From positions 1 through 39,031 of IMG/VR virus record IMGVR_UViG_3300034523_000184: a stretch of 39,031 nucleotides of DNA; one strand, written 5' to 3'. This document shows positions 239 to 39,031 of this stretch, piece after piece; position 1 is the stretch's first letter; each line of letters begins with the position of its first letter. The stretch comes from a virus. Made by a program: the position numbers and the translations under genes. A model generated the notes under the pieces. The model saw only the letters and a list, made by a program, of their open reading frames with translations, did not search any database and was not told where the DNA came from.

Positions 239-1288
239 TTAAAGCCTTTCTGACGCAGCACTTCCTCTTACCAGCCTCAGGTCACCCAGCACGCCAATGA
301 CAGTGCGACGCGCATCGCAGTGCTTCGCGTAGGCCAGGAAGCTGCACACTCTCTGCCTCACATGCTTCTGATCTACCAACCCAGCTCGATACCTCAAGCT
401 CAGCGTCCTGAAGGACGCCCTCGCACGCTTGATGTTCCGCTTGCGCGGCAGAATGTGAGTGGGCCAGATGCGGTAACCGCAGAAGTCCAGCCCGCGCTGC
501 CAGGGGTGGATCGCCGTCTTTGGGTTAAGCTCCAGGCTCAACCCTTCAACTACTGATGCCAGATCACCCAGGATGGATGCTGCTGACGCCTTGTTGGGCA
601 ACACCGCTATGAAGTCATCCATGTACCGCACGTAGTGCTTGATACCTAAGTCATCCTTGGCCACATGATCCAGACGGTTTAGCAGGATGTTCGCCCCGAG
701 CTGACTGGTGAGCGCCCCAACCGGCAGGCCGACGCCGGTCTCGTTGCCATAGCCACAGATGATCTGCTGCCATAGCCACAATACATCTCGGTCGGAGATG
801 GTCCGCGAGATCTCTCCAAGCAGCACGCTATGCCTAATACTGGCGAAGAACTTGCTGATATCAGCCTTGAGCACGTAAACCTCTGGCCCATGGTTACGCT
901 TGGCTACTCGGATGAAGCGCTGAGCACGCGCCACAGCAGCCTGAGTACCCATCCCTACGCGGCAAGCGTAGGAGTCGGAGATAAACTTACGCTCGAATAT
1001 CGGGTTAACCACGCGCACCAGCGCGTGATGGATGACGCGATCTTCGAACGGAGGTGCCTGTATCAGGCGTAGCTTGGGCTCCTTGACGACAAATTCACGA
1101 GGCTTGCCAGGCGCCCAGCTTTTCCATAGAAGGTGGTTTTGCAGATTAACCAGGTTCTCTTCAACGTTCGCCGAGAAACGCAGTACAGAGGAGCGATCGC
1201 GCTTGCCGCGCCGCGCCTCTAGGTAGGCCTGATATAGGTTATCGAAGTCGGTTATCTGGCCCCAGAGGCCAGTGGTGGTGATAGGCAC
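239..1288 (-). CDS. DGR reverse transcriptase
   Basis: A 349-residue reverse transcriptase that should copy the template-repeat RNA into adenine-mutagenised cDNA for transfer into the fibre gene. Visible motifs are the first catalytic Asp in KADISKFF (D143), the DGR-type GLPVGALTSQ (187-196; Ser-Gln in place of the retroviral Gln-Gly) and the catalytic YMDD (222-225). LNPKT and GLDFCGYRI follow in the thumb-proximal region. The length suits DGR enzymes, and there is no group II intron maturase or HNH domain. It is the last gene of the leftward late block, after the template repeat and Avd gene. A retron is unlikely because the template repeat has a matching variable repeat in a lectin-fold gene. 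All key residues are intact. Confidence 0.95.
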   Translation of the reverse strand: MPITTTGLWGQITDFDNLYQAYLEARRGKRDRSSVLRFSANVEENLVNLQNHLLWKSWAPGKPREFVVKEPKLRLIQAPPFEDRVIHHALVRVVNPIFERKFISDSYACRVGMGTQAAVARAQRFIRVAKRNHGPEVYVLKADISKFFASIRHSVLLGEISRTISDRDVLWLWQQIICGYGNETGVGLPVGALTSQLGANILLNRLDHVAKDDLGIKHYVRYMDDFIAVLPNKASAASILGDLASVVEGLSLELNPKTAIHPWQRGLDFCGYRIWPTHILPRKRNIKRARASFRTLSLRYRAGLVDQKHVRQRVCSFLAYAKHCDARRTVIGVLGDLRLVRGSAASERL

Positions 1289-1588
1289 AACATAAGCCTT
1301 AGCCCTCGCCGAGGGCGGAAAATTAGGGCGGGCACCGCCACATTCCCCGAAGGTACTAGCCGCGACGCCCTATAAATCTTTGACTACATGGTCTGGAGAG
1401 GGGCTCCAAAGGAAGCGCGCTGGACATAGGCCCTTGAGCCTAATGCCTTCTGGCGATAATCGTTTGCGAGGCGGCCGCCGACATTCGTGTTCGCGTTCGA
1501 CGCGGCGTTGTTGACGTTCAGATAGAACAGCCCGGCGTTCGAGCCGTTGCCGTAGTTGCCACCGTAATAAGCCTCCCCCCAATGCTCT
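1289..1588 (-). ncRNA. DGR template RNA region (Avd end - TR - spacer)
   Basis: This 300-base stretch between the Avd and reverse transcriptase genes has no convincing gene. It holds the template repeat (1463-1565) and a spacer of about 175 bases leading to the reverse transcriptase start. In the Bordetella phage BPP-1 system, the RNA spanning the end of avd, TR and the spacer is folded and bound by the RT-Avd complex and primes cDNA synthesis. The same order here suggests the same role. An open frame exists on the - strand through the repeat (1370-1582), but it is not in the frame of the variable protein and has no recognisable product. Confidence 0.7.
1463..1565 (-). repeat. DGR template repeat (TR)
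   Basis: These 103 bases match 2900-3002 with 90 identities and no gaps. On the - strand, 12 of the 13 differences are at TR adenines; the exception, at 1527, is T in TR and G in VR. Read in the fibre frame, TR has Asn codons (AAC or AAT) at 1555, 1546, 1537, 1516, 1510, 1507, 1495, 1489 and 1483 (lowest base of each codon), and all nine encode a different residue in VR. The last 21 bases of the 3' end (1463-1483) are identical and GC-rich, like an initiation-of-mutagenic-homing region. Weak similarity continues to about 1573 (Tyr-Tyr versus Phe-His codons), where differences are no longer adenine-biased, so the active repeat probably stops near 1565. Confidence 0.95.
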
Positions 1589-1945
1589 TTATTTCTTAAC
1601 CGGTGCAGGGCCTTCGTGCTTGATCCATGCGCCTACGATGCGCCCGATCTCATTGACGTGCCGCATCCAGACATCAAGGCGATGAGTGTTGATATAAGAA
1701 AGCCGGTGCGCCTTACGCACCAAGTGGCGGAATACTTCGATCTCTACGTCCAGATCAAACAGTGCCGCAGCTTTCTGGCGGCGCTTCCAAGCCACCACCG
1801 TCAGCCGCAGGAGATGATTCGTTACAGCCCGGAGTTCCGAGCAAAGCAGGTGCCGCTCAAGCTTGGGGAACTGGTGCAGCACGGTGTGCGTGTAGGCATC
1901 CAGCTCTTCAAGCTTGGTCAGCAGATTCAAATGGACATCACTCAC
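1589..1945 (-). CDS. avd: Avd-like accessory variability determinant
   Basis: A 118-residue, basic, all-helical protein with the pattern of the Avd four-helix-bundle family (about 120 residues). Its N-terminal part reads LLTKLEELDAYTHTVLHQFP, followed by KLERHLLCSELR, and LVRKAHRLSYINTHRLDVW lies in the second half. In BPP-1, Avd is a pentameric barrel that binds the reverse transcriptase and template RNA and is essential for retrohoming. The start is GTG (1943-1945), overlapping the stop of the upstream membrane-protein gene as GTGA, which implies translational coupling. It lies directly upstream of the template repeat, as in the canonical avd-TR-RT order. The family call rests on length, composition and context. 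Confidence 0.88.
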   Translation of the reverse strand: MSDVHLNLLTKLEELDAYTHTVLHQFPKLERHLLCSELRAVTNHLLRLTVVAWKRRQKAAALFDLDVEIEVFRHLVRKAHRLSYINTHRLDVWMRHVNEIGRIVGAWIKHEGPAPVKK

Positions 1946-2253
1946 GCCGACATCTTCCCTTCATCTGCCTCGATATTGCTTTCGCAATGATTAGGCTCGA
2001 ACCAGTCCAGCAGCTTGCATAGCACGCAACCCCAACGCTTACCCTTGCGGGCTGCCTTACCTGCACGAGAACTGATCGTTTCGTCCTCACTGCCGCCGAA
2101 GGCGGTGTTGGCCAGTTGGTCGAACGACACACCCAGGCGCCAGGCCCGATCGCTGTTCCCCAATACCGCGAGGAGCATCCAGCACAATCCAACCAGGGCG
2201 ACAAACGCGCAGAGCAGAAACAAGGCCAGCCCTAGCGCCATACGCTTCACCAT
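1942..2253 (-). CDS. Small membrane protein within the DGR cassette
   Basis: A 103-residue protein with a long hydrophobic N-terminal segment (about residues 5-32), probably one long or two short membrane helices. A cytosolic tail follows with the sequence GKRWGCVLCKLLDWFEPNHC, which has three Cys and one His spaced like a possible metal site. I recall similar small proteins with this tail near tail-fibre genes of Pseudomonas prophages, without known function. It overlaps the preceding gene by 7 bases and the Avd gene by 4 bases, so the three are translated together. It may have no link with diversification. Confidence 0.75.
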   Translation of the reverse strand: MVKRMALGLALFLLCAFVALVGLCWMLLAVLGNSDRAWRLGVSFDQLANTAFGGSEDETISSRAGKAARKGKRWGCVLCKLLDWFEPNHCESNIEADEGKMSA

Positions 2254-2816
2254 ACAATGCCCGCCACTTCTTCCAGGGACTCAGCCTTGTCGAGCAGATC
2301 CTCGGCGGCTTGGCGTTTTCCGATGATTGCGCCCGAGTATGCGGCGTAGCCGACGGCTTTTGACTGTACACGACCCGCCAGATCCTCGACGGTCAAGCCG
2401 CGCACCTCGGCGATGGCAGAAAGCAGCGGCGTGGCCGCCTTCGGATCCAACTGCAGACCCGACGCCTCCTGCACCTGTTGCGGCCAGCTCTGCAGTTCAC
2501 CGGGCGGGTAAGTGCTGGTCAGGGCTGCCAAAGCCAACTCACAACCAGCGTTCAGCTCAACCAGCTTGGCCACCTTCGCGGCCTCCAGCTTGTGGGAGTC
2601 CGCAGCTGCGTATTTCAGCTCCCCCAGGTAAACGGTGTCACCCAAAGCGCAGGCGGGAACCTCGTCCGGCTCACCTGGCAGGATTACCGCGACAAACAAG
2701 CCGTCTTCACGGTAGTCGACCGGAACCGACCAGACACGAACCAAGGCGTCAGCCGAGACGAGCGGCAGTGTTACGGATGCGCCTAGCGCGCTCAGGATTC
2801 CATCTTCAATCTTCAT
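2247..2816 (-). CDS. Probable tail-fibre assembly chaperone
   Basis: A 189-residue acidic protein directly after the fibre gene. It has a good ribosome site (AGGAG, 7 bases before ATG). The N-terminal half is beta-rich and mentions a display of substituents (YREDGLFVAVILPGEPDEVP). The C-terminal half is helical and ends with LLDKAESLEEVAGIVW. Position after a fibre and the N-terminal beta, C-terminal helical layout suit a fibre-assembly chaperone of the DUF4376 kind, but I see no diagnostic motif. In BPP-1 the gene after the variable protein is avd, so this is an extra gene in the cassette. Confidence 0.55.
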   Translation of the reverse strand: MKIEDGILSALGASVTLPLVSADALVRVWSVPVDYREDGLFVAVILPGEPDEVPACALGDTVYLGELKYAAADSHKLEAAKVAKLVELNAGCELALAALTSTYPPGELQSWPQQVQEASGLQLDPKAATPLLSAIAEVRGLTVEDLAGRVQSKAVGYAAYSGAIIGKRQAAEDLLDKAESLEEVAGIVW

Positions 2817-2841
2817 AGCACTCTCCTAAAAAGCAAAGGGC

Positions 2842-2856
2842 GCCCGCTTGGCGGGC
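2842..2856 (-). terminator. Hairpin downstream of the variable repeat
   Basis: GCCCGC-TTG-GCGGGC forms a 6-bp GC stem with a 3-base loop, 43 bases past the end of VR and between the fibre and chaperone genes. On the - strand it is followed by GCCCTTTGCTTTTT, so it may be a partial intrinsic terminator that lowers expression of the genes beyond the fibre. DGRs such as BPP-1 also have a hairpin or cruciform just past the homing region that stimulates target recognition; this one lies farther from the repeat than in BPP-1. Confidence 0.5.
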
Positions 2857-2892
2857 TAGCCCAAAACAACATGACTCAAGTCACAGGACCCA

Positions 2893-5454
2893 TCACACCT
2901 TTGCGAGGCGGCCGCCGACACTCGTGTACGCGTCCGACGCGGCGTAGCTGACGCCCAGATAGACCAGCCCGGCGATCGAGCCGGAGCCGTAGGAGCCACC
3001 GTGGAACGCCACACAATTGGCGCTACCGTAGAAGTAATCGCCATAACTGCCATTGCTTGCCGCCGAATCAGCCGTAGCCGCAGCGAACATGTCGCGCAGG
3101 TCGTAATTTGCCCCCGCATCCTCAGCCATGGTCACCGGGTAGCCGTTAGCAGGAACGGTTCGAGTCGTGGTCTGGTAGGTCTTGTTCCCGTTTCGATCCC
3201 AAACAATGAACCTGCTCGATGCATCGGTCTGCAGGCCATCAACCATTTGGAAGACGTTGCCCCACAGCCCGACGATGCCTCGCCAAGTAGCTTGCGCAAC
3301 CGTAGCGCTATCGACCGCCTGCACAGCGCTGGTGCTGACGTTGCCTTGGCCGATGAGCGCTTGAGAGTCGGCACCACCCATTTCGATCATCGCTAGCGTC
3401 TGGATTGCTGACAGTTGGTAGATCGACCACAACGCAAAACCGCTGACGCCCGCCGTGTTGCGCGCAGCTGCGCGGGCCTGCATGGTCGGAAAGTCGATAC
3501 TGGCCAGAGGCATCAGGCCTGGCTTGGAGCCGAGCTTTGCGCCGTCAGTCGTGCCCTGGTATTTGCCCACCCAGAACTGCGCGAGATCCGCGCCCGCATT
3601 CTTGAATGCTGGGTGCAAGGTGAAGCCTGCCGCTGGCTGGTCGGAAATCCATACCGCCTTCTTGCCGACGTTCGCTCCAGAGGCAATGGTTCCGCGCTTC
3701 ACATAGAAGGCAGGGATTCTGACCATGTTCTGGCCGTCGACCACTTGATCCTGAATCGCGCCGTATGTGGCGTGCGAACTGAAAAACGATGCGTCCGTCA
3801 CCTTGGTTGCGCCGTTTTCATCCACGCGAGCCCAGGTGCCAGCGCCGCCGCCCGTGGCTAGCATCGCAATGCCGATCACGTTGGCGAACTGCGCCTTGGT
3901 GGTGATCTTGCTTTCGGTCGACCACTCCGACCAGCCCTTGGCGGTGCCCTGATGGCGCACCTGCAGGTAATAGCTCAGCTGACCTGGCAGCAACTTGCCA
4001 ACAGGCACTACCACCGTCAGCTTGTTCACCGCGTCGGTACCGCTATCCCATGCGGGGGCTGCATAAGTACCTGCCGCCGTGCGAATCCGCCATTGGCTGG
4101 CCGCATGCGTATCTGCGCCGCCCGAAACGACAAAGGCCGAACTGGTCAGCGTTGGCTGCTCAGGCACGTCGACGGCGTTTGCGGCAGGTCCGGTGATGCT
4201 AGGCGCAGCTACATATACGAACGAGGCGGCCGTGGCAAAGCTGGAAACAGCCGAATAATCCGACCACAAGCCCGCCACGTCCTGGACGCGAGCACGCCAG
4301 TAATAAGTCGTTCCAGCGACCAGCACGGCAGCAGGCAAGGCATACGACAGCCCGGAGCCGAGCACGCCAGAGTCATGCAGGATCGACACAAAGGCGGCAG
4401 TCGTCGACAACTGGAATTGCACAGCGGCCTGCGTGTTGCCAGATGGCGAGCTGTAGCCCGTCAAGGCCAGTGTTGGACGCTCCATCACCCCAGCTGCAGC
4501 GGCGGCAGGCGTGCTGATCAGCGGCGTTGCCGGGCGCAGATCCGGGTTGATAAAGCCGCCCAGGCCGGTCGGCGTGCCCAGGGCCACCAGGTGGGCAATG
4601 CTCATTGCCTCGCCCGAGATGTCGAGCCGCAGCCAGCCATCACCGCGCATCGGCAGGATGTATTCGTAGTCGGCGTAGCCAGTCGGGATATCGCCATCGG
4701 TACGGCGCAACGACCAGCCGGTTTCTTTCCACGTCGGCTGGTAGCCGTCGCGGTAATACAGGCGGGCCATGCCCGAGTTGAGCGAGCGGCGAATCACGAC
4801 CGCGCCACCGGCAGTGTCGGTGCCGATATTGACCGAACGAGTCAGGTAGATATCGCCCGGCATGGCAGCGGCGCGGGAAGCGCCCAGCACCTTGATGCTG
4901 GAGCGACGCAGAGTTGCTGATGGGCCCCAGTCGCGTGACAGGTTGGCCGCGAGACGGATGCGGGCCGCTGACAGTACGGTTTGCACTTGCACCAGGGCCG
5001 ATGCCGGGGCCGGGTCGCCGTTGGCATCAACCGCAGCCGGATCACTTAGGACATAAAACTCGCCAGGGCGCAGCTGGGCCGTGGACGCCAGATCGATAGA
5101 GTCATCGCCGTTGACGCCCTGGACAACAGTGATCGGCTCCAGATCGATCAGCGTGTAGCCAGGAACGAACATTTCAAAGCGCACTACGTTGTTGCGGTAC
5201 AGCCAGTCGAGATCAACTGCCTTTTGCACCGAGACGGCGCTCGACGACTCAACGTCGCCAAGGCGCTCATCCAGCGAGTCGATGGCCAGATCCGCTGCGG
5301 CCTTGTTATCGCCAACTGCCTTATTAATAGCTGCGTCATTGTCCAGCAGCGCCTGGTGAATCGGATTCCACGTGTCCGGGTGGGCGACACTGGAGGTTGT
5401 CAGCGCCGGTACGCTGGCGGAGAAAACCGGATTTGGACTTGGGGTCAACGGCAT
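2893..5454 (-). CDS. DGR-diversified tail fibre with C-type-lectin-like tip (receptor-binding protein)
   Basis: An 853-residue fibre that should bind the host receptor at the tail tip. About residues 1-120 form an N-terminal attachment and coil part (DERLGDVESSSAV). A beta-rich region follows, then two fibronectin-III-like repeats at about 330-410 (TTYYWRARVQDVAGLWSDYS) and 417-522 (LSYYLQVRHQGTAKGWSEWS). The C-terminal 330 residues (523-853) form a formylglycine-enzyme/C-type-lectin fold like DGR variable proteins: GLWGNVFQMVDGL (729-741) matches the GN-WEW-DG signature, and GGSYGSGS starts the variable segment. Codons under diversification lie in the last 33 residues. It is preceded by the tail-collar and gpI-like genes. 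Two GN motif positions are Phe and Gln rather than Trp and Glu, as is common among these proteins. Confidence 0.93.
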   Translation of the reverse strand: MPLTPSPNPVFSASVPALTTSSVAHPDTWNPIHQALLDNDAAINKAVGDNKAAADLAIDSLDERLGDVESSSAVSVQKAVDLDWLYRNNVVRFEMFVPGYTLIDLEPITVVQGVNGDDSIDLASTAQLRPGEFYVLSDPAAVDANGDPAPASALVQVQTVLSAARIRLAANLSRDWGPSATLRRSSIKVLGASRAAAMPGDIYLTRSVNIGTDTAGGAVVIRRSLNSGMARLYYRDGYQPTWKETGWSLRRTDGDIPTGYADYEYILPMRGDGWLRLDISGEAMSIAHLVALGTPTGLGGFINPDLRPATPLISTPAAAAAGVMERPTLALTGYSSPSGNTQAAVQFQLSTTAAFVSILHDSGVLGSGLSYALPAAVLVAGTTYYWRARVQDVAGLWSDYSAVSSFATAASFVYVAAPSITGPAANAVDVPEQPTLTSSAFVVSGGADTHAASQWRIRTAAGTYAAPAWDSGTDAVNKLTVVVPVGKLLPGQLSYYLQVRHQGTAKGWSEWSTESKITTKAQFANVIGIAMLATGGGAGTWARVDENGATKVTDASFFSSHATYGAIQDQVVDGQNMVRIPAFYVKRGTIASGANVGKKAVWISDQPAAGFTLHPAFKNAGADLAQFWVGKYQGTTDGAKLGSKPGLMPLASIDFPTMQARAAARNTAGVSGFALWSIYQLSAIQTLAMIEMGGADSQALIGQGNVSTSAVQAVDSATVAQATWRGIVGLWGNVFQMVDGLQTDASSRFIVWDRNGNKTYQTTTRTVPANGYPVTMAEDAGANYDLRDMFAAATADSAASNGSYGDYFYGSANCVAFHGGSYGSGSIAGLVYLGVSYAASDAYTSVGGRLAKV
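2900..3002 (-). repeat. DGR variable repeat (VR) in the fibre gene
   Basis: The last 35 codons or so of the fibre gene. Against TR, the substituted residues are S821, S824, I827, V831, G834, S836, Y837, D841, Y843 and S845. Nine of these replace TR-encoded Asn; V831 replaces Phe through the single non-adenine change. The final bases, encoding VGGRLA before the stop, are identical to TR and set the fixed 3' boundary. Confidence 0.95.
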
Positions 5455-5831: not shown

Positions 5832-6958
5832 AGCGGTTCCTGTGTCGTTATGCCGTTGTGTTTAACGCGCAGGGTGGCGCGGAATCTGATGTTTGGTCCG
5901 CCCAGTTCGCCGCCCAGCAGCCAGGTGCCGTCGAGACGATGCAGGCCGACGCGGCCGAGCTGGGCATCGGCAAGGCTTCGGCCTTCGTCCATCGGCCAGC
6001 CCTGAAGTGTTTGGATGCCCAGATCCCAGCGGCCATCCAGCGCACGAAAGCGATCGCCTAAGAGGACCGGCTCAGAAGCACGCGCCCCGCCCATGGCCAT
6101 GGCTGCACGCAGCGTGATCTTTTGGTGGGTGGTGATATGGCTGTTGTCCAGGGTCGCGCCGGTCGGCGTGTGCCCATTGAGGAGCCGCCCATTAAGGGAC
6201 CAGCTACCGTCGAGCAACACGGCGGCATATCCACCGTTGAGCTTCCAGCAACCATCCAGCGTGCGGCGCGCTGCAGGCTGGAACCGCTGGCACTTGGAGT
6301 ACTTCAAACGCAGGCGTGCAGCCATCGACTTGATGGTGATCCGCGAATCGAACCTGGCCTGCAGCGCGATGATGATGCCGACCAGCTCGTCACGAGTTGG
6401 CGCGTAGGCCTCTGCGACCTGGCGAATTCGTTTCTGTTGGTCGCGAGACCAGTCGCCTTCGGAGGCGTTGAGACGGATCGCGTATTGGGCCCAGTGGCTC
6501 ATGGCAATGCGCTTCATGACTTGGCCGTTGATGCCGGTCGCGGGCGGCGTGAGACTGACGCTGCCATCGAGCAGCCAGGTGCCATCCAGGGTCTTGCCAC
6601 CTGCAGCAATCCATTCGGCCTGGTAAGTCTTCTGCTCGATCAGCTCTAGGACCGGATAACCGATGGTGGCCAGCGCCTGCTTGACTGCCCAGGGCGTGCC
6701 TTTGTAGCGGTGCAGCATGATTGCGGTCTTGATCAGCGCTCGCCGGTCGTCATCGGACCTGGCCACCGGCCAAGTAGCCTCTTCCAGCATCGAAAACTGT
6801 TCGGCGAGGATCGGCAGCAGCGAAGGCGGCACCAGGTCGACCAGGTAGACGAGCATCGAGTTGAGATTGAGCCGCTGCAGGTTCTCGTTGAGCAGCTCAT
6901 TCAGCCAGACGAATCGTTCGTCACCGGCCAGTGCTGGCGGCAGCTGTTGATCAGCCAT
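5828..6958 (-). CDS. I: P2 gpI-like baseplate wedge protein with C-terminal LDG repeats
   Basis: The first 200 residues match the P2 tail protein I family: LPPALAGDERFVWL, then ATWPVARSDDDRRALIKTAIMLHRYKGTPWAVKQAL. This is the usual wedge component that carries the fibres. The rest, about 175 residues, is an extension with recurring LDGTWLLDGS-like units (LDGTWLLDG, LDGCWKLNG, LLDGSWSLNG, LDGRWDLG, LDGTWLLGG), probably a repetitive beta structure. I chose ATG at 6956-6958 (MADQQLPP), which overlaps the gpJ-like gene by 8 bases and has GCAGGT upstream. An earlier in-frame ATG at 6973 is possible. P2 gpI is about 176 residues, so the extension is additional. Confidence 0.85.
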   Translation of the reverse strand: MADQQLPPALAGDERFVWLNELLNENLQRLNLNSMLVYLVDLVPPSLLPILAEQFSMLEEATWPVARSDDDRRALIKTAIMLHRYKGTPWAVKQALATIGYPVLELIEQKTYQAEWIAAGGKTLDGTWLLDGSVSLTPPATGINGQVMKRIAMSHWAQYAIRLNASEGDWSRDQQKRIRQVAEAYAPTRDELVGIIIALQARFDSRITIKSMAARLRLKYSKCQRFQPAARRTLDGCWKLNGGYAAVLLDGSWSLNGRLLNGHTPTGATLDNSHITTHQKITLRAAMAMGGARASEPVLLGDRFRALDGRWDLGIQTLQGWPMDEGRSLADAQLGRVGLHRLDGTWLLGGELGGPNIRFRATLRVKHNGITTQEPL

Positions 6959-8072
6959 TGGACGTACCTGCATCGATCAGCTGGATCGAGGAGCAAACTG
7001 CCCATTCGTTGCCCAGCAATTCACGCGGCACAGCTGGTTGTTCGACAAAAGCCCGATACACACCGGCCACTTGAAGCCGTGCGATCAGCTGCTCAGGGAC
7101 GATATCGACACCCAGCCCGGCACTCAACTCAAGCACGTACGCATTGGCGGCGGCTTGCACCTGGGCCATCGTAGTGACGCGATCGGCGCTGTTGAAGAAG
7201 ACGATGCGGGCGCTGATCGCGTAATCAACCTGCACCGGAGGCAGCGCATGCACGGTGTCACACAGGGGGCGAACCTTCTCGCCATTCACCAAAGTCAGCA
7301 CGCGCTGCAGTAGGTCGGCTGTAGGCAGGCCACTGGTGGTCAGCGGAAAGAGCGCGACATGCCCAGGCTGCTGGCCTTCGGCTGGACCATGGACCGCCAC
7401 ATCTTTGATCGACTGATGCACCGCCATGGCGTGATAACGATACGCGCCACGGCTGCCCGCATTGGAGTAAGCCTCCGGGGCAAGAATGATGCGCTCGCGA
7501 TAGCGATCATCGTCCTCATCCTCGGCACCGTCAGCGCTAACCGTAATGCTGGCGGCCAGCAGACCGGCGAACGGTGGATTGGTGATGACGCTGATCTGCC
7601 CGACCGCCCAACCGTTACCGGCTTCGCCGACTGTGCTGCAGGTGGTGGTGACAGTGACCTGAGTCTGGCCCGAGGGTATCAGCACGTCTTCATCGGTGAC
7701 GAATGCCAGCTTGGCGTCCAGGGTGGCCACTCGTGTGCCAACCGGGATCAGCAAAGGCTGAGTTGCTGCCGCTGCAATGGTGAAACGCACCGTGCAACGA
7801 GCGGCTGTTGCCAGCAGTCGAGGGGTGGCGACCAGCTCACCCAGGTAATCCAAGATCGGGCCGCTGCTGCGCCGCACCAGCAGCTGCTCACCAGCATTCT
7901 GAATGGACATCTGCAGGCCGGTGGTGGCGTAGGCAATCTGATCGATGAAAAGACGTTCGATCTGCGCCGGATACAGGGTTTTGCCCGACTTCTCTTCATA
8001 GCGCGCAATCAGATCCGCTTCGGTGGCGGCAGGATCGATCACGACAAATATTGGCTTAGGCAGCTCGCGCAT
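6951..8072 (-). CDS. J: P2 gpJ-like baseplate protein
   Basis: A 373-residue baseplate J family protein (P2 gpJ is about 300). Typical features are the N-terminal RELPKPIFVVIDPAATEADLIARYEE, the central YRYHAMAVHQSIKDVAVHGP block and the repeated LPPVQVDYAISARI strand near the C-terminus. It polymerises with gpI and gpW into wedges around the hub. The start ATG has GGAGGT 7 bases upstream and overlaps the gpW-like gene by 17 bases. The chain gpW-gpJ-gpI is the P2 order. Confidence 0.93.
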   Translation of the reverse strand: MRELPKPIFVVIDPAATEADLIARYEEKSGKTLYPAQIERLFIDQIAYATTGLQMSIQNAGEQLLVRRSSGPILDYLGELVATPRLLATAARCTVRFTIAAAATQPLLIPVGTRVATLDAKLAFVTDEDVLIPSGQTQVTVTTTCSTVGEAGNGWAVGQISVITNPPFAGLLAASITVSADGAEDEDDDRYRERIILAPEAYSNAGSRGAYRYHAMAVHQSIKDVAVHGPAEGQQPGHVALFPLTTSGLPTADLLQRVLTLVNGEKVRPLCDTVHALPPVQVDYAISARIVFFNSADRVTTMAQVQAAANAYVLELSAGLGVDIVPEQLIARLQVAGVYRAFVEQPAVPRELLGNEWAVCSSIQLIDAGTSNG

Positions 8073-8433
8073 ACGGCACCTCCGTCAACTGAGGCACACC
8101 GTCTGCGACCCGCCATACGACCGTCAGCGTGACCTGGGCCGCTTCAATGGCTGGATTGACCCGCACCACTGTCACCCGAGTTTCCCAAAGGCGAATAGCG
8201 TCTACGGCTTCGCGCACCAGGTGCGGCACAACCCGATTAACAGGCCAGTCGATATAGAGGTGGATGTCACTGCCAAAGGTCGGGCGGTGTGGGTCGCTAC
8301 CCTTGGGCGTCGTGAGGATGATGCGAATAGCCTGGTCAATATCACGCAGGCCTTCCACGACCGCACCGGCAGTGCCAAGTGCTGGCTGCCAGTGGGCTGC
8401 GGTGATGCTGGTATAGGAGATAGGCGTCGTCAT
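8056..8433 (-). CDS. W: P2 gpW-like baseplate protein (gp25 family)
   Basis: A 125-residue protein of the GPW/gp25 family. It has the signature EGLRDIDQAIRIILTTPKGSDPHRPTFGSDIH, where the RP-FGS-I motif marks the fold shared with T4 gp25. It links sheath and baseplate and starts sheath assembly. It is the first gene after a copy of the 19-bp late element (8466-8484) and begins the baseplate-fibre-DGR block. No strong ribosome site is visible before ATG 8433, and the distance to the element is only 32 bases, so a short or leaderless transcript is possible. Confidence 0.92.
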   Translation of the reverse strand: MTTPISYTSITAAHWQPALGTAGAVVEGLRDIDQAIRIILTTPKGSDPHRPTFGSDIHLYIDWPVNRVVPHLVREAVDAIRLWETRVTVVRVNPAIEAAQVTLTVVWRVADGVPQLTEVPYARAA

Positions 8434-8465
8434 GCGCCCATATTGAGGAGGTGCGCGCCTGCTAG

Positions 8466-8484
8466 CTTTTAATCTGGTTTAAAG
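8466..8484 (-). promoter_or_regulatory. Late element copy A, upstream of the baseplate block
   Basis: CTTTTAATCTGGTTTAAAG (+ strand). Fifteen of 19 positions are the same in all four copies in the window. It sits in the 99-base gap between the gpV-like and gpW-like genes. It has imperfect dyad symmetry (CTTTTAA / TTTAAAG), as expected for a dimeric activator. A weak hairpin, CCCG-TG-CGGG, lies just upstream on the transcribed side. Binding by the Mor-like protein of this phage is inferred. Confidence 0.75.
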
Positions 8485-8532
8485 CTTCCCGTGCGGGCCG
8501 GGCAGCTGAACATCCTTCTATATATAGGGTGA

Positions 8533-9084
8533 TCAATGACTATGGTGATTCGAGTTGCCGCCACCATCCATCACGGTGCCGCCCGCATTGACGTTACCGC
8601 CGACCTCCACATTGCCGCTCACCTTGAGGTTGCCATTCAACTGAACCTCAGGAACGTCCAGGGTGGCTGATGGGGCCTTGACCGACACCGGCTCACCGCA
8701 TTCGACGCTCAGGTTTTTGGCGCACTTTAAAGTAGTGGCTCCGACGCAATCGAGCGCCATCACATGCGCTGCACGGTCATACGTGAGGGTCGTGCCGTCA
8801 CTGAACCGCACATAGTCAGTGTCTTCATCGACGACTGGGGGCGGCTCGGCGGTGGAATAGATGCCGCCCAGGTAAACACCGCCGACGCCATCGGCATCGA
8901 GCAGCACCGCCACCTGCTCATTTAGCTCAGGCATCAACGGGCGACGTTGCGTGCCCTGGGTGTTGCGCTGAGGCACGTGCAGCCAGTAGCTCTCCACGCC
9001 ATCCCGGTCATCCAAGCGCACGCGGATCCGGCAGGTCTGGTGATCGACCGCGCTCACTTCACCGTATTCCAGTTCAATGCCCAT
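8533..9084 (-). CDS. V: P2 gpV-like baseplate spike
   Basis: A 183-residue central spike that should pierce the outer membrane. The N-terminal OB-fold part (residues 1-80) has RIRVRLDDRDGVESYWLHVPQR. The rest is a triple-stranded beta-helix-like repeat (LNGNLKVSGNVEVGGNVNAGG). It ends with SNHHSH; the HxH tip in P2 gpV binds an iron ion in the trimer apex. P2 gpV is 211 residues. It is the last gene of the tape-measure/hub block and is followed by late element A. Confidence 0.93.
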   Translation of the reverse strand: MGIELEYGEVSAVDHQTCRIRVRLDDRDGVESYWLHVPQRNTQGTQRRPLMPELNEQVAVLLDADGVGGVYLGGIYSTAEPPPVVDEDTDYVRFSDGTTLTYDRAAHVMALDCVGATTLKCAKNLSVECGEPVSVKAPSATLDVPEVQLNGNLKVSGNVEVGGNVNAGGTVMDGGGNSNHHSH

Positions 9085-31921: not shown

Positions 31922-33697
31922 ATGACGCCGGTACAAACCCAGCTCTTGGCTCGAATTGCCCAACAGGCAGCCAATGCCCCGCACGGCCAGCGCACCGCCA
32001 TCTACAAGGCAGGCGCAGTCGAGCTGGGCGTATCGATCCAGACCTTACAGCGCAAGCTGAAGGATACCTCCATGACCAAGCCACGTAAGCGCCGAAGCGA
32101 TTCAGGCTGCAGCGCGCTGCCTCTGAACGAAGCGCAACTGATCTCGGCGGTTCTTCTGGAGTCGATCCGGGCCAACAACAAACAATTGTCGACGGTTGAG
32201 CGCGCAGTTGAGCGCTTGCGCAGCAACAACATGATCATCGCCGGGCGTCTGGACGAGAAAACGGGTGCATTCACAGCGCTTTCAACCGGTGCAATCACCC
32301 GCGCATTGCGGGCTTATACATTGCACCCGGAACAGCTGCTGCACGACGCACCCTCGGTATCGCTCGCCAGCAAGCATCCCAACCATGTCTGGCAGGTCGA
32401 TGCATCCATCTCTACCCAGTATTACTTGGCCGATGACGGCGCACGGGCAATGAACCCTGCCGAGTTTTATGACGGCAAGCCCGCCAACCTGAGGAAGATC
32501 GAGCGCCAGCGTCTTTGGCGCTATGTCATCACAGACCACACCAGCGGCACGCTTTACCTGGAGTATGTGCTGGGCGCCGAATCTTCGGAAAACCTGTGCA
32601 ACGTCTTGATCAATGCCATGCAAAAACGGCATGAGTCGGACCCGTTCCACGGTGTGCCCTGGATGCTGATGACCGACCCAGGCGCAGCGATGACAAGCGG
32701 CATTTTTCGCAACCTGTGCCGCGCCATGTCCATCGAGCTGATCATCAATCAGGTAGGCAACGCCCGCGCCAAGGGTCAGGTTGAGCAGGCTCACAACCTG
32801 GTAGAGCGGGAATTCGAAAGCGCCTTGAAATTCCAAGCGGCCACCAGCCTGGAGCAGATCAACGACTGGGCAGGTGAGTGGATGCGTTATTACAACGCCA
32901 CTGCTATCCACACCCGCACTCAGCGTACTCGATACGGCGTCTGGCAGCTGATCAAGGCTGACCAGTTGCGCCTGGCGCCGAGCGTTGCTGTCTGCCGTGA
33001 ACTGGCGGTCAGCACCCCTGAGGAGCGCACGGTCACCACCATGCTGCGCATCTCGTTCCGTGGCGCTCAGTTCGATGTCAGCAACGTGCCAGGCGTGATG
33101 GTCGGCGAAAAAGTGTTGGTGACGCGTAACTGCTGGCGGGACAAGGACGCCGCCTTGGTGCTGCGGATCGGCGAGGACGGCCGCGAGCGCTATCACGTCA
33201 TCGAGCGCCTCGACGTGGACCAGTTTGGGTTTTCCGAGGCTTCCGCTTTGATTGGCGAAAGCTTCAAAAGCCACGCCCAGACTCCTGCTCAGCTATCGCG
33301 CAAGGTGCTTGAACAGCTCGCCACAGGCACAACCAATGAGGAGGACGCAAAGGCAGCACGCAGGGCCAAGACCCTCCCATTTGGCGGCATGATCGATCCT
33401 CACAAGCATGTCACCGACACCGTTCTTCCTGCCTACATGCCGCGCCGTGGCACTTCGTTGAGCGTGAACGTGCCCACCGTTGACCATGCGCCACTCACGC
33501 ATGTGGATGCAGCCAAGCTTCTTCGCGCCCGATTGGGTTCTACGTGGTCAGGCGAAACCTTCTCCTGGCTGCAGAAACGATTCCCTGAAGGCGTGCCCCC
33601 TGAACAGCTCGACGCCATTGAGGCTGAGCTGAACCGACCAGCAGAGGTGATGCGTCAGCCGCTCAGCCTGGTGCGTTCTGCTGCTGGAGGCGAATGA
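31922..33697 (+). CDS. DDE transposase (BcepMu TnpA/IstA-type)
   Basis: A 591-residue transposase. The N-terminal part has HTH segments (about 25-50, AGAVELGVSIQTLQRKLKD). The catalytic RNase H-like core has D160 (HVWQVDAS), D252 (LMTDPGAA) and E288 (AKGQVEQAHNLVE), a DD35E spacing. A beta-barrel-like domain follows at about 370-430. It should join prophage ends to new targets in integration and replication. It overlaps the ATPase gene by 4 bases, like MuA-MuB order. It differs from MuA in sequence, and IstA-type enzymes and BcepMu gp10 are closer. Confidence 0.95.
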   Translation: MTPVQTQLLARIAQQAANAPHGQRTAIYKAGAVELGVSIQTLQRKLKDTSMTKPRKRRSDSGCSALPLNEAQLISAVLLESIRANNKQLSTVERAVERLRSNNMIIAGRLDEKTGAFTALSTGAITRALRAYTLHPEQLLHDAPSVSLASKHPNHVWQVDASISTQYYLADDGARAMNPAEFYDGKPANLRKIERQRLWRYVITDHTSGTLYLEYVLGAESSENLCNVLINAMQKRHESDPFHGVPWMLMTDPGAAMTSGIFRNLCRAMSIELIINQVGNARAKGQVEQAHNLVEREFESALKFQAATSLEQINDWAGEWMRYYNATAIHTRTQRTRYGVWQLIKADQLRLAPSVAVCRELAVSTPEERTVTTMLRISFRGAQFDVSNVPGVMVGEKVLVTRNCWRDKDAALVLRIGEDGRERYHVIERLDVDQFGFSEASALIGESFKSHAQTPAQLSRKVLEQLATGTTNEEDAKAARRAKTLPFGGMIDPHKHVTDTVLPAYMPRRGTSLSVNVPTVDHAPLTHVDAAKLLRARLGSTWSGETFSWLQKRFPEGVPPEQLDAIEAELNRPAEVMRQPLSLVRSAAGGE

Positions 33698-34878
33698 TGT
33701 TGAAGCTAAAGCAAGTACTGAAAGGGCTGGGTCGACCTCAGTCGGCTCTGGCTGAGTCGCTGAAACTCAGCGCAGCCACCATCGCCCAACTGATCAACCA
33801 CGGTCAATGGCCTCGCAGCTTGGACAGTGCGGACTTGCAAGGGCGCATTCGAGCGTTCCTGGTCGAGTCAGGGGCCAATGATTCCGACATCGCCAACGCG
33901 TTTGAAAAAGTGGACCTGCCGTGCGTCAACACGGCAGGTCCGGCCCTAAATGAAGAGCCGTCCGGGGAGGACGAACCCATGCTACTACCAAAACAAACAC
34001 TCAAGGCATCGACCCGCAAGGTATTTGGAATGTTCCGCGACCCCTTTGACGAGCTGCAGAGCGCCAAAGACATGTGGGTCAGCCCCGATATTCGCTACGT
34101 CCGCGAGGCGATGTACCAGGTGGCTCGGCACGGCGGCTTCCTGGCGATCGAGGGCGAGTCAGGTGCGGGGAAAAGCACTTTGCGGCGCGACCTGATCAAC
34201 CGCATTCAGGAAAACAATGACCCGGTGATCATCATTGAACCGTATGTGCTCGCGTCCGAAGACAACGACACCAAGGGCAAATCGTTGAAGAGCACTCACA
34301 TCGCCGAGTCAATGATGGCAGCAGTCGCACCACTGGAAAGAGCCAAAAGCAGCCCAGAGGCACGGTTCGCCCAGTTGCACCGCGTCCTGAAAGAGTCCCA
34401 CTCTGCTGGTTATCGTCACTGCCTGGTCATCGAGGAGGCGCACAGCCTTCCGATCCCGACGCTCAAGCATCTCAAGCGCATCCTGGAGCTGGAGATCGGT
34501 TTTACCAAACTGGTCAGCATCATCATGATCGGCCAGCCGGAACTGGGCGTAAAACTGAGCGAGCGCAACGCTGACGTGCGTGAAGTCGTACAGCGTTGCG
34601 AGCGCGTGACACTGCCCGCGATCGAGGGCGGTCGTCTCGACGAGTTCTTGCGGTTCCGTTTCGAGCGCGCAGGTAAAGACCTGCGCGAGATCATCGACGA
34701 AAGCGGCATCCAGGCCGTCGCCGCTCGACTGTCACAGACCGGGCGCCGTGGCGGCCGTGATGAGTCGATCTCACTTCTATACCCGCTGGCCATCGGAAAC
34801 TTGGTGATTGCCGCGATGAACCTTGCGGCCGAGCTGGGCGTGCCCGTGGTTAACGCCGACATCGTGAAGGGGGTCTGA
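33694..34878 (+). CDS. AAA+ transposition ATPase (MuB/IstB-ExeA-like)
   Basis: A 394-residue target-selection ATPase. An N-terminal helix-turn-helix (SALAESLKLSAATIAQLINHGQWP, about 17-40) is like the DNA-binding part of MuB. The AAA+ core has Walker A GESGAGKS (154-161) and Walker B CLVIEEAH (243-250), then a likely sensor I in SIIMIGQPELG. It should bind target DNA, activate the transposase and give target immunity. It follows the transposase with a 4-base overlap. Confidence 0.95.
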   Translation: MMLKLKQVLKGLGRPQSALAESLKLSAATIAQLINHGQWPRSLDSADLQGRIRAFLVESGANDSDIANAFEKVDLPCVNTAGPALNEEPSGEDEPMLLPKQTLKASTRKVFGMFRDPFDELQSAKDMWVSPDIRYVREAMYQVARHGGFLAIEGESGAGKSTLRRDLINRIQENNDPVIIIEPYVLASEDNDTKGKSLKSTHIAESMMAAVAPLERAKSSPEARFAQLHRVLKESHSAGYRHCLVIEEAHSLPIPTLKHLKRILELEIGFTKLVSIIMIGQPELGVKLSERNADVREVVQRCERVTLPAIEGGRLDEFLRFRFERAGKDLREIIDESGIQAVAARLSQTGRRGGRDESISLLYPLAIGNLVIAAMNLAAELGVPVVNADIVKGV

Positions 34879-38907: not shown

Positions 38908-38913
38908 CGACGA
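38908..38913. repeat. Target-site duplication, right copy (CGACGA)
   Basis: Matches 121-126 and follows the CA end of the prophage. Confidence 0.6.
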
Positions 38914-39031
38914 ACTGCCTCAGTCCCTGGCGCAGAATCGCCTGTGGATCACCTGGCAACTCGCCCCCCAGAGCAGCGCGTACACCATCCCCGGCGCCCT
39001 GCGCCTGCGCGGCGAACTGGATGAAGACGCG
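38908..39031 (+). pseudogene. NRPS fragment: start of a condensation domain, cut off by the window end
   Basis: The frame from 38909 reads ELPQSLAQNRLWITWQLAPQ then SSAYTIPGALRLRGELDEDA, the well-known first motif of NRPS condensation domains (the L-P-x-S-x-A-Q-x-R-x-W core). It is in the same frame as the carrier-domain fragment at base 2, so the two were one gene. The prophage separates the upstream thiolation domain from this domain and would abolish the downstream modules. Confidence 0.9.

Follow-up and report, generated by a model that had tools for sequence, protein, structure and literature searches.

Results

A diversity-generating retroelement at the end of a tail fibre gene

The stretch of DNA analysed here, positions 1 to 39,031 of IMG/VR virus record IMGVR_UViG_3300034523_000184 (39,031 nucleotides, hereafter the window), very probably carries a functional-looking diversity-generating retroelement (DGR) of a Mu-like temperate phage. 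Its reverse transcriptase (RT) and accessory variability determinant (Avd) accompany a template repeat (TR), the adenines of which are altered in a variable repeat (VR) at the end of a tail fibre gene. A periodic TG array downstream of VR may be a new part, the rest of the element being of a known kind. The features of the element, in window positions, were as follows.

239 to 1288, minus strand: DGR reverse transcriptase, 349 aa, with TSQ and YMDD motifs
1301 to 1482, minus strand: structured spacer RNA, which takes in the last 20 nt of TR
1463 to 1565, minus strand: template repeat (TR), 103 nt with 25 adenines
1589 to 1945, minus strand: Avd, 118 aa
1942 to 2253, minus strand: open reading frame (ORF) of 103 aa
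2247 to 2816, minus strand: ORF of 189 aa
2838 to 2862, minus strand: putative target hairpin, with inner stem GCCCGC, loop CAA and GCGGGC (2842 to 2856) and outer arms GGGC and GCCC
2870 to 2899, minus strand: TG array, with four TG steps at a spacing of exactly 7 nt (2892, 2885, 2878 and 2871, reading down)
2893 to 5454, minus strand: tail fibre, the DGR target, 853 aa, with a modelled C-terminal C-lectin/FGE-fold domain
2900 to 3002, minus strand: variable repeat (VR), encoding fibre residues 818-852 of 853

TR and VR form an ungapped direct repeat of 103 nt with 13 differences, 12 of which, read on the coding (minus) strand, fall at TR adenines. Changes were thus present at 12 of the 25 TR adenines and at 1 of the 78 other bases (Fisher exact p = 3.8e-8), which is exactly what the initial annotation had stated of an adenine-directed pair. 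When TR was scanned against the whole window, this one VR was matched and no further VR was found. The common 3' end of both repeats is G+C-rich (GTCGGCGGCCGCCTCGCAAA) and includes an 11-nt run of G+C only (14 nt in Bordetella phage BPP-1); TR and VR diverge immediately past it, as do the initiation of mutagenic homing sequences IMH and IMH*.

The RT contained the motifs VGALTSQLGAN and YVRYMDD and matched PHROG 1423 (E 2e-124). Over 283 residues it shared 39% identity with BPP-1 Brt, and its best solved relative was the BPP-1 bRT (entry 8ub7, E 3e-49). Avd scored above the curated NCBIfam equivalog cut-off (92.7 bits against 80), and its bAvd match was likewise high (84.6 against 40). An RT with YMDD and a DGR-type Ser-Gln motif and an Avd-like protein had both been proposed beside the TR, and these results bear the two proposals out. 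Wherever a usable TR/VR pair was available, the locus also had Avd, and dN/dS values of 0.06-0.12 indicated purifying selection on both RT and Avd. The two ORFs between VR and avd are additions to the initial annotation. The 189-aa ORF lay between fibre and avd in 22 of the 22 relatives checked and its product possibly serves or associates with the fibre; the 103-aa ORF was not found in the cassettes of several relatives.

The variable domain of the fibre

The C-terminal 335 residues of the fibre were modelled together with 24 relatives (predicted local distance difference test score 89.5, predicted template modelling score 0.92). The nearest folds to this model were the Thermus DGR protein TaqVP (Z 25.9), Treponema TvpA (15.4), PvdO (15.0) and BPP-1 Mtd (14.0). 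The model thereby supports a predicted C-lectin/FGE fold, that of known DGR targets, for the domain that carries VR; the fibre end had earlier been called C-type-lectin-like, and the claim is now backed by the structure model and the fold comparison. Ten AAY codons are present in TR, at each of which 15 amino acids can be reached, and no stop codon is reachable at the TR adenines. About 2.5e12 fibre proteins are reachable in total.

Repeat pairs in related loci

Individual related loci are referred to by L numbers where needed. Among the related loci with a repeat pair, 132 of 134 put the free changes on A of the RT strand and 2 on T; some few of the 134 pairs are other repeats. The scan penalises changes at non-free bases, and the A share that it gives is therefore biased by construction. 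With C or G set free, the scan returned the same pairs at lower scores with VR taken as the template, so that A versus T is the fair contrast.

Identical TRs were present in nine viral contigs (L004-L011 and L013), which held seven different VRs at 7-18 differences from one another, nearly all of these at TR adenines. The window TR was 1 base from the TRs of L002 and L082, and its VR differed from theirs at 18 and 14 positions. Repeated mutagenic homing is expected to leave just such a record, a TR that stays constant and a VR that diverges, and since nine relatives with an identical TR have seven VRs, this type of element has been active. Neither differences free of adenine bias nor identical VRs throughout, the two outcomes that would have spoken against the initial annotation, were seen among the relatives. 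The element may also be acting in this particular lysogen.

Structured spacer RNA between TR and RT

The spacer, also an addition to the initial annotation, forms nine helices in a fold that includes the TR 3' end. Compensatory changes were present in 16 of 41 pairs, and covariation was observed in 49 cells (shuffles, 11.3; slid controls, 4-11). Model R1, a covariance model derived from 22 spacers, matched the window at 1301-1482 and detected the TR-RT spacer of divergent DGRs outside the building set, including that of Bacillus phage BalMu-1; the two BPP-1 loci among the sources gave no R1 match up to E 1. Against Rfam, the window spacer was a weak full-length match to RT-14 (RF02921; 34.1 bits, E 0.021, gathering cut-off 48.1). 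The spacers of BalMu-1 and L068 score above the RT-14 threshold, and model R1 ties the window spacer to these two members. The BPP-1 spacer RNA belongs to Phage_DGR (RF03022).

A TG array downstream of VR

In the window, the stretch that leads from VR to the hairpin contains TGTGATG-GGTCCTG-TGACTTG-AGTCATG. The array was first spotted by eye and subsequently tested statistically. On its own the window array is weak (shuffle p 0.0055), and the case rests on the set of loci. CTG-CTG at lag 7 gave z = 28.6 against dinucleotide shuffles, and a chain of at least four TG steps at lag 7-8 was present in 39 of 95 non-redundant loci as compared with 3.2 in shuffles; no such chain was found in the TR flanks of these 95 loci. 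The rule was then fixed in writing before held-out loci were fetched, and 13 of these 45 loci passed (0.5 expected), with 0 among their TR flanks. Over all non-redundant loci, 52 of 139 VR flanks passed, the background being 0.36% of 55,562 windows from the same loci (0.5 expected); kinship is ignored in the p-value for this count, which should accordingly not be read literally. The mean unit was about GTNATCTG, in chains of 4-6, and units were more similar within arrays than between them (0.46 versus 0.36). By a looser rule, the array was also present in 23 of 36 non-redundant loci that had no detected hairpin.

In BPP-1 the counterpart is GTG-ACCACCTG-ATTCTTG, which lies inside the 21-bp IMH element, the determinant of transfer direction. 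Like the window array, this element is confined to VR and lies directly 3' of the G+C-rich part, with TG steps 8 and 7 nt apart. Unlike it, the BPP-1 element is shorter, coding and within the TR/VR homology, whereas the four steps of the window, to which a putative role is assigned here, are outside the homology and mostly past the stop codon.

The chances appear evenly balanced that the array, with its 7-8-nt period, is a widespread and undescribed recipient mark that distinguishes VR from TR in DGRs, and of which the BPP-1 IMH element is one short case. Its reader may be a host protein or a multimeric factor, for instance the Avd pentamer. The chief alternative, which we consider rather unlikely, is that the array has no function and is a by-product of common ancestry or of coding constraint at target gene ends. 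All of the loci are related DGRs and hence non-independent, the array region is coding in the BPP-1 clade, and 87 of the 139 non-redundant VR flanks failed the strict rule. Against this alternative, most arrays are at or past the target stop codon, and the period is retained while the letters between TG steps change, also between the two VR flanks of phage L041. The units moreover co-vary in some lineages (CCG in L095, ACG in L023, CTT in L136), the two-VR elements L019, L041, L050, L053 and L097 have the array at both VRs (one of them with three steps) and not at the TR, and the pattern replicated on the held-out loci.

In L019, one TR is accompanied by two VRs that are oppositely oriented and separated by about 8.5 kb; the same TG array follows both. 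The array was absent from a Bacteroidetes-type group (L233-L241), in which GCGAGCGATAGCGAGC-like hairpins are near VR; hairpins without a TG array therefore point to more than one kind of recipient site. There was no clear sign of base pairing between array and spacer RNA, reverse-complement 5-mers being not clearly enriched (44 versus 37 expected). No description of the array was found in the searchable DGR papers, most subscription papers and preprints being outside reach.

The putative target hairpin

Phage DGR hairpins have been described with 7-10 bp stems and GRNA tetraloops, and in BPP-1 both the size and the sequence of the loop are critical (Guo 2011, PMC3240598). The window hairpin was not a GC stem of that length with such a tetraloop; it has a 6-bp inner stem and a CAA triloop. 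A GRNA-tetraloop hairpin is a feature of a subset of DGRs and does not define them, and GRA triloops are recorded in nanoarchaeal DGRs (PMC4372165). In the RT clade of the window, a GC-rich covarying hairpin with a C-R-A triloop was present downstream of VR, a region that the initial annotation does not cover. Among 18 distinct hairpins the loop-closing pair was C-G in all, and the next five pairs swapped between G-C and C-G. This loop type was limited to one clade of the RT tree (179 rows), and the C-R-A triloop hairpin is a minor variant.

That the hairpin after the fibre gene is a transcription terminator only, with no part as a DGR target hairpin, is improbable. It is followed by TTTGCTTTTT and sits between two genes, as a terminator might; yet a simple terminator scan does not call it, in many relatives the retained hairpin lacks a T run, the loop is C-R-A throughout while the stem pairs are swapped, and the hairpin is placed as the BPP-1 target hairpin is.

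Switching of loop type within one RT clade was considered for L021, L024, L086 and L089-91, which seemed to have GRNA loops next to close RTs, and was rejected. The apparent switch in L024 was dismissed because this locus has two tandem DGRs and the repeat pair belongs to the other RT; the other five have a tandem layout like it, leaving L029 and L036 alone as possible switches. L024 (4800-9074) is a Burkholderiales prophage in which two different DGRs stand in tandem; their RTs are at 6288-7352 and 8001-9074, and neither DGR shares its Avd or its spacer RNA with the other. L021, L086, L089, L090 and L091 share this double layout. The second DGR of such a pair has a TR, and its VR was not found within the DNA examined.

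Is the element intact?

Several points weigh against a working element that varies a receptor-binding tip. One TR/VR difference, T to G at TR position 39, is off the adenines, the loop of the hairpin differs from the GRNA tetraloop that BPP-1 needs, and contact of fibre residues 818-852 with a receptor is suggested by analogy with Mtd. The position-39 change is probably a private point mutation, because the VRs of near relatives are without it.

The first two of these points also speak for a decayed or silent DGR, with TR/VR differences left over from earlier activity and an element that no longer functions in this phage. We regard this as very improbable, given that both RT and Avd are intact, with purifying selection acting on them, that the spacer RNA pairs are retained, and that many different VRs occur in close relatives which share both the TR and the triloop hairpin. 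An ordinary duplication diverged by point mutation, near an RT of another kind (a group II intron or retron), draws on a weak, below-cut-off match to group II intron RT in NCBIfam and is hardly credible when 12 of the 13 changes fall on adenines of a single copy, >100 relatives show the same pattern, Avd and the SQ motif are present, and a DGR RT, that of BPP-1, is the best solved relative.

The prophage and its insertion site

The DGR is placed after the fibre at the right end of a prophage, the features of which were as follows.

121 to 126 and 38908 to 38913, unstranded: the two copies of a 6-bp target duplication, CGACGA
127 to 38907, unstranded: complete Mu-like prophage, 38,781 bp, with ends TG...CA, within a nonribosomal peptide synthetase (NRPS) gene
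31922 to 33697, plus strand: Mu A-like transposase
33694 to 34878, plus strand: Mu B-like DNA transposition protein

A DDE transposase, a B protein, TG...CA ends and a short target duplication are the marks of a Mu-like transposable phage, and the prophage has all of them. The structural genes are on the minus strand, and the transposase and B protein on the plus strand. Judged from their translations, the host flanks (1-126 and 38908-39031) are NRPS sequence, and since both flanks translate as such the insertion was placed in a host NRPS gene. Homology of the window to a prophage contig of Pseudomonas antarctica starts at window base 127, and the P. antarctica genome has a transposase 98% identical to that of the window. 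The host genus is thus most likely Pseudomonas, going by these relatives. Prophages of this type are rare, being present in 2 of 399 Pseudomonas genomes, both of them relatives identified before that survey. The window's transposase was not found in 20 viral records of near relatives, several of which are fragments; these relatives suggest that the DGR cassette may also occur in other phage backbones.

Discussion

Comparison with known systems

DGRs that target tail fibres are already well known, also in transposable phages (hankyphage, BalMu-1 and YPCBV-1). The window element resembles the BPP-1 DGR (mtd-avd-TR-brt) in the order VR, avd, TR, RT on one strand, the adenine-directed VR, Avd, a structured spacer RNA, a C-lectin target, a post-VR hairpin and the RT at the identity given above. 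It differs in the two extra ORFs between VR and avd, in its fibre family, in a spacer that weakly matches RT-14 rather than RF03022, and in its C-R-A triloop, where BPP-1 has a GAAA loop.

Bacillus phage BalMu-1 and Chromohalobacter phage YPCBV-1 are likewise Mu-like and carry target gene, avd, TR and RT beyond the baseplate genes, at the right end, and the BalMu-1 spacer RNA fits model R1. Their RTs are 43% and 39% identical to that of the window, respectively, their targets are annotated as SUMF1/EgtB/PvdO enzymes, and the BalMu-1 hairpin is of GRNA type. In both, VR is inside a gene annotated as such a non-heme iron enzyme (L314:3232-4281, YPCBV-1 ORF53; L162:4317-5267, BalMu-1 gp50). ORF53 has been published as an auxiliary metabolic gene; because DGR targets share the SUMF1/EgtB/PvdO fold, it is more likely a DGR-varied tail protein.

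The hankyphage of Bacteroides (PMC6199706) is also a Mu-like transposing phage with DGR repeats that differ at adenines, and it is set apart by its host, its 117-bp repeats and its phage group. The nanoarchaeal DUSEL4 DGRs (PMC4372165) share a target hairpin with a trinucleotide loop, which in them is GRA within the target gene and in the window C-R-A past the stop codon.

Proposed mechanism and significance

The chemistry is proposed by homology to BPP-1. The avd-TR-spacer-brt transcript would most likely be bound by RT and Avd via the spacer RNA, RT would copy TR into cDNA with errors at adenines, and this cDNA would then take the place of VR in the fibre gene, at its 3' end. Recognition at VR would involve the G+C-rich end shared by TR and VR together with the elements just downstream, namely the TG array and the hairpin. 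Through the ten AAY codons and a few others, the lectin-fold tip could reach the diversity calculated above, and such variation would probably alter which host surface is bound.

How mutagenised DGR cDNA goes to VR rather than to TR is a question still open (PMC12875486). A repeated motif that is confined to VR across distant DGRs, and is found on both VRs of two-VR elements, offers mutational work a defined sequence as its target. The prophage, which has a cultured relative in P. antarctica, would itself provide a Pseudomonas system in which the diversification of a fibre by a transposable phage may be followed.

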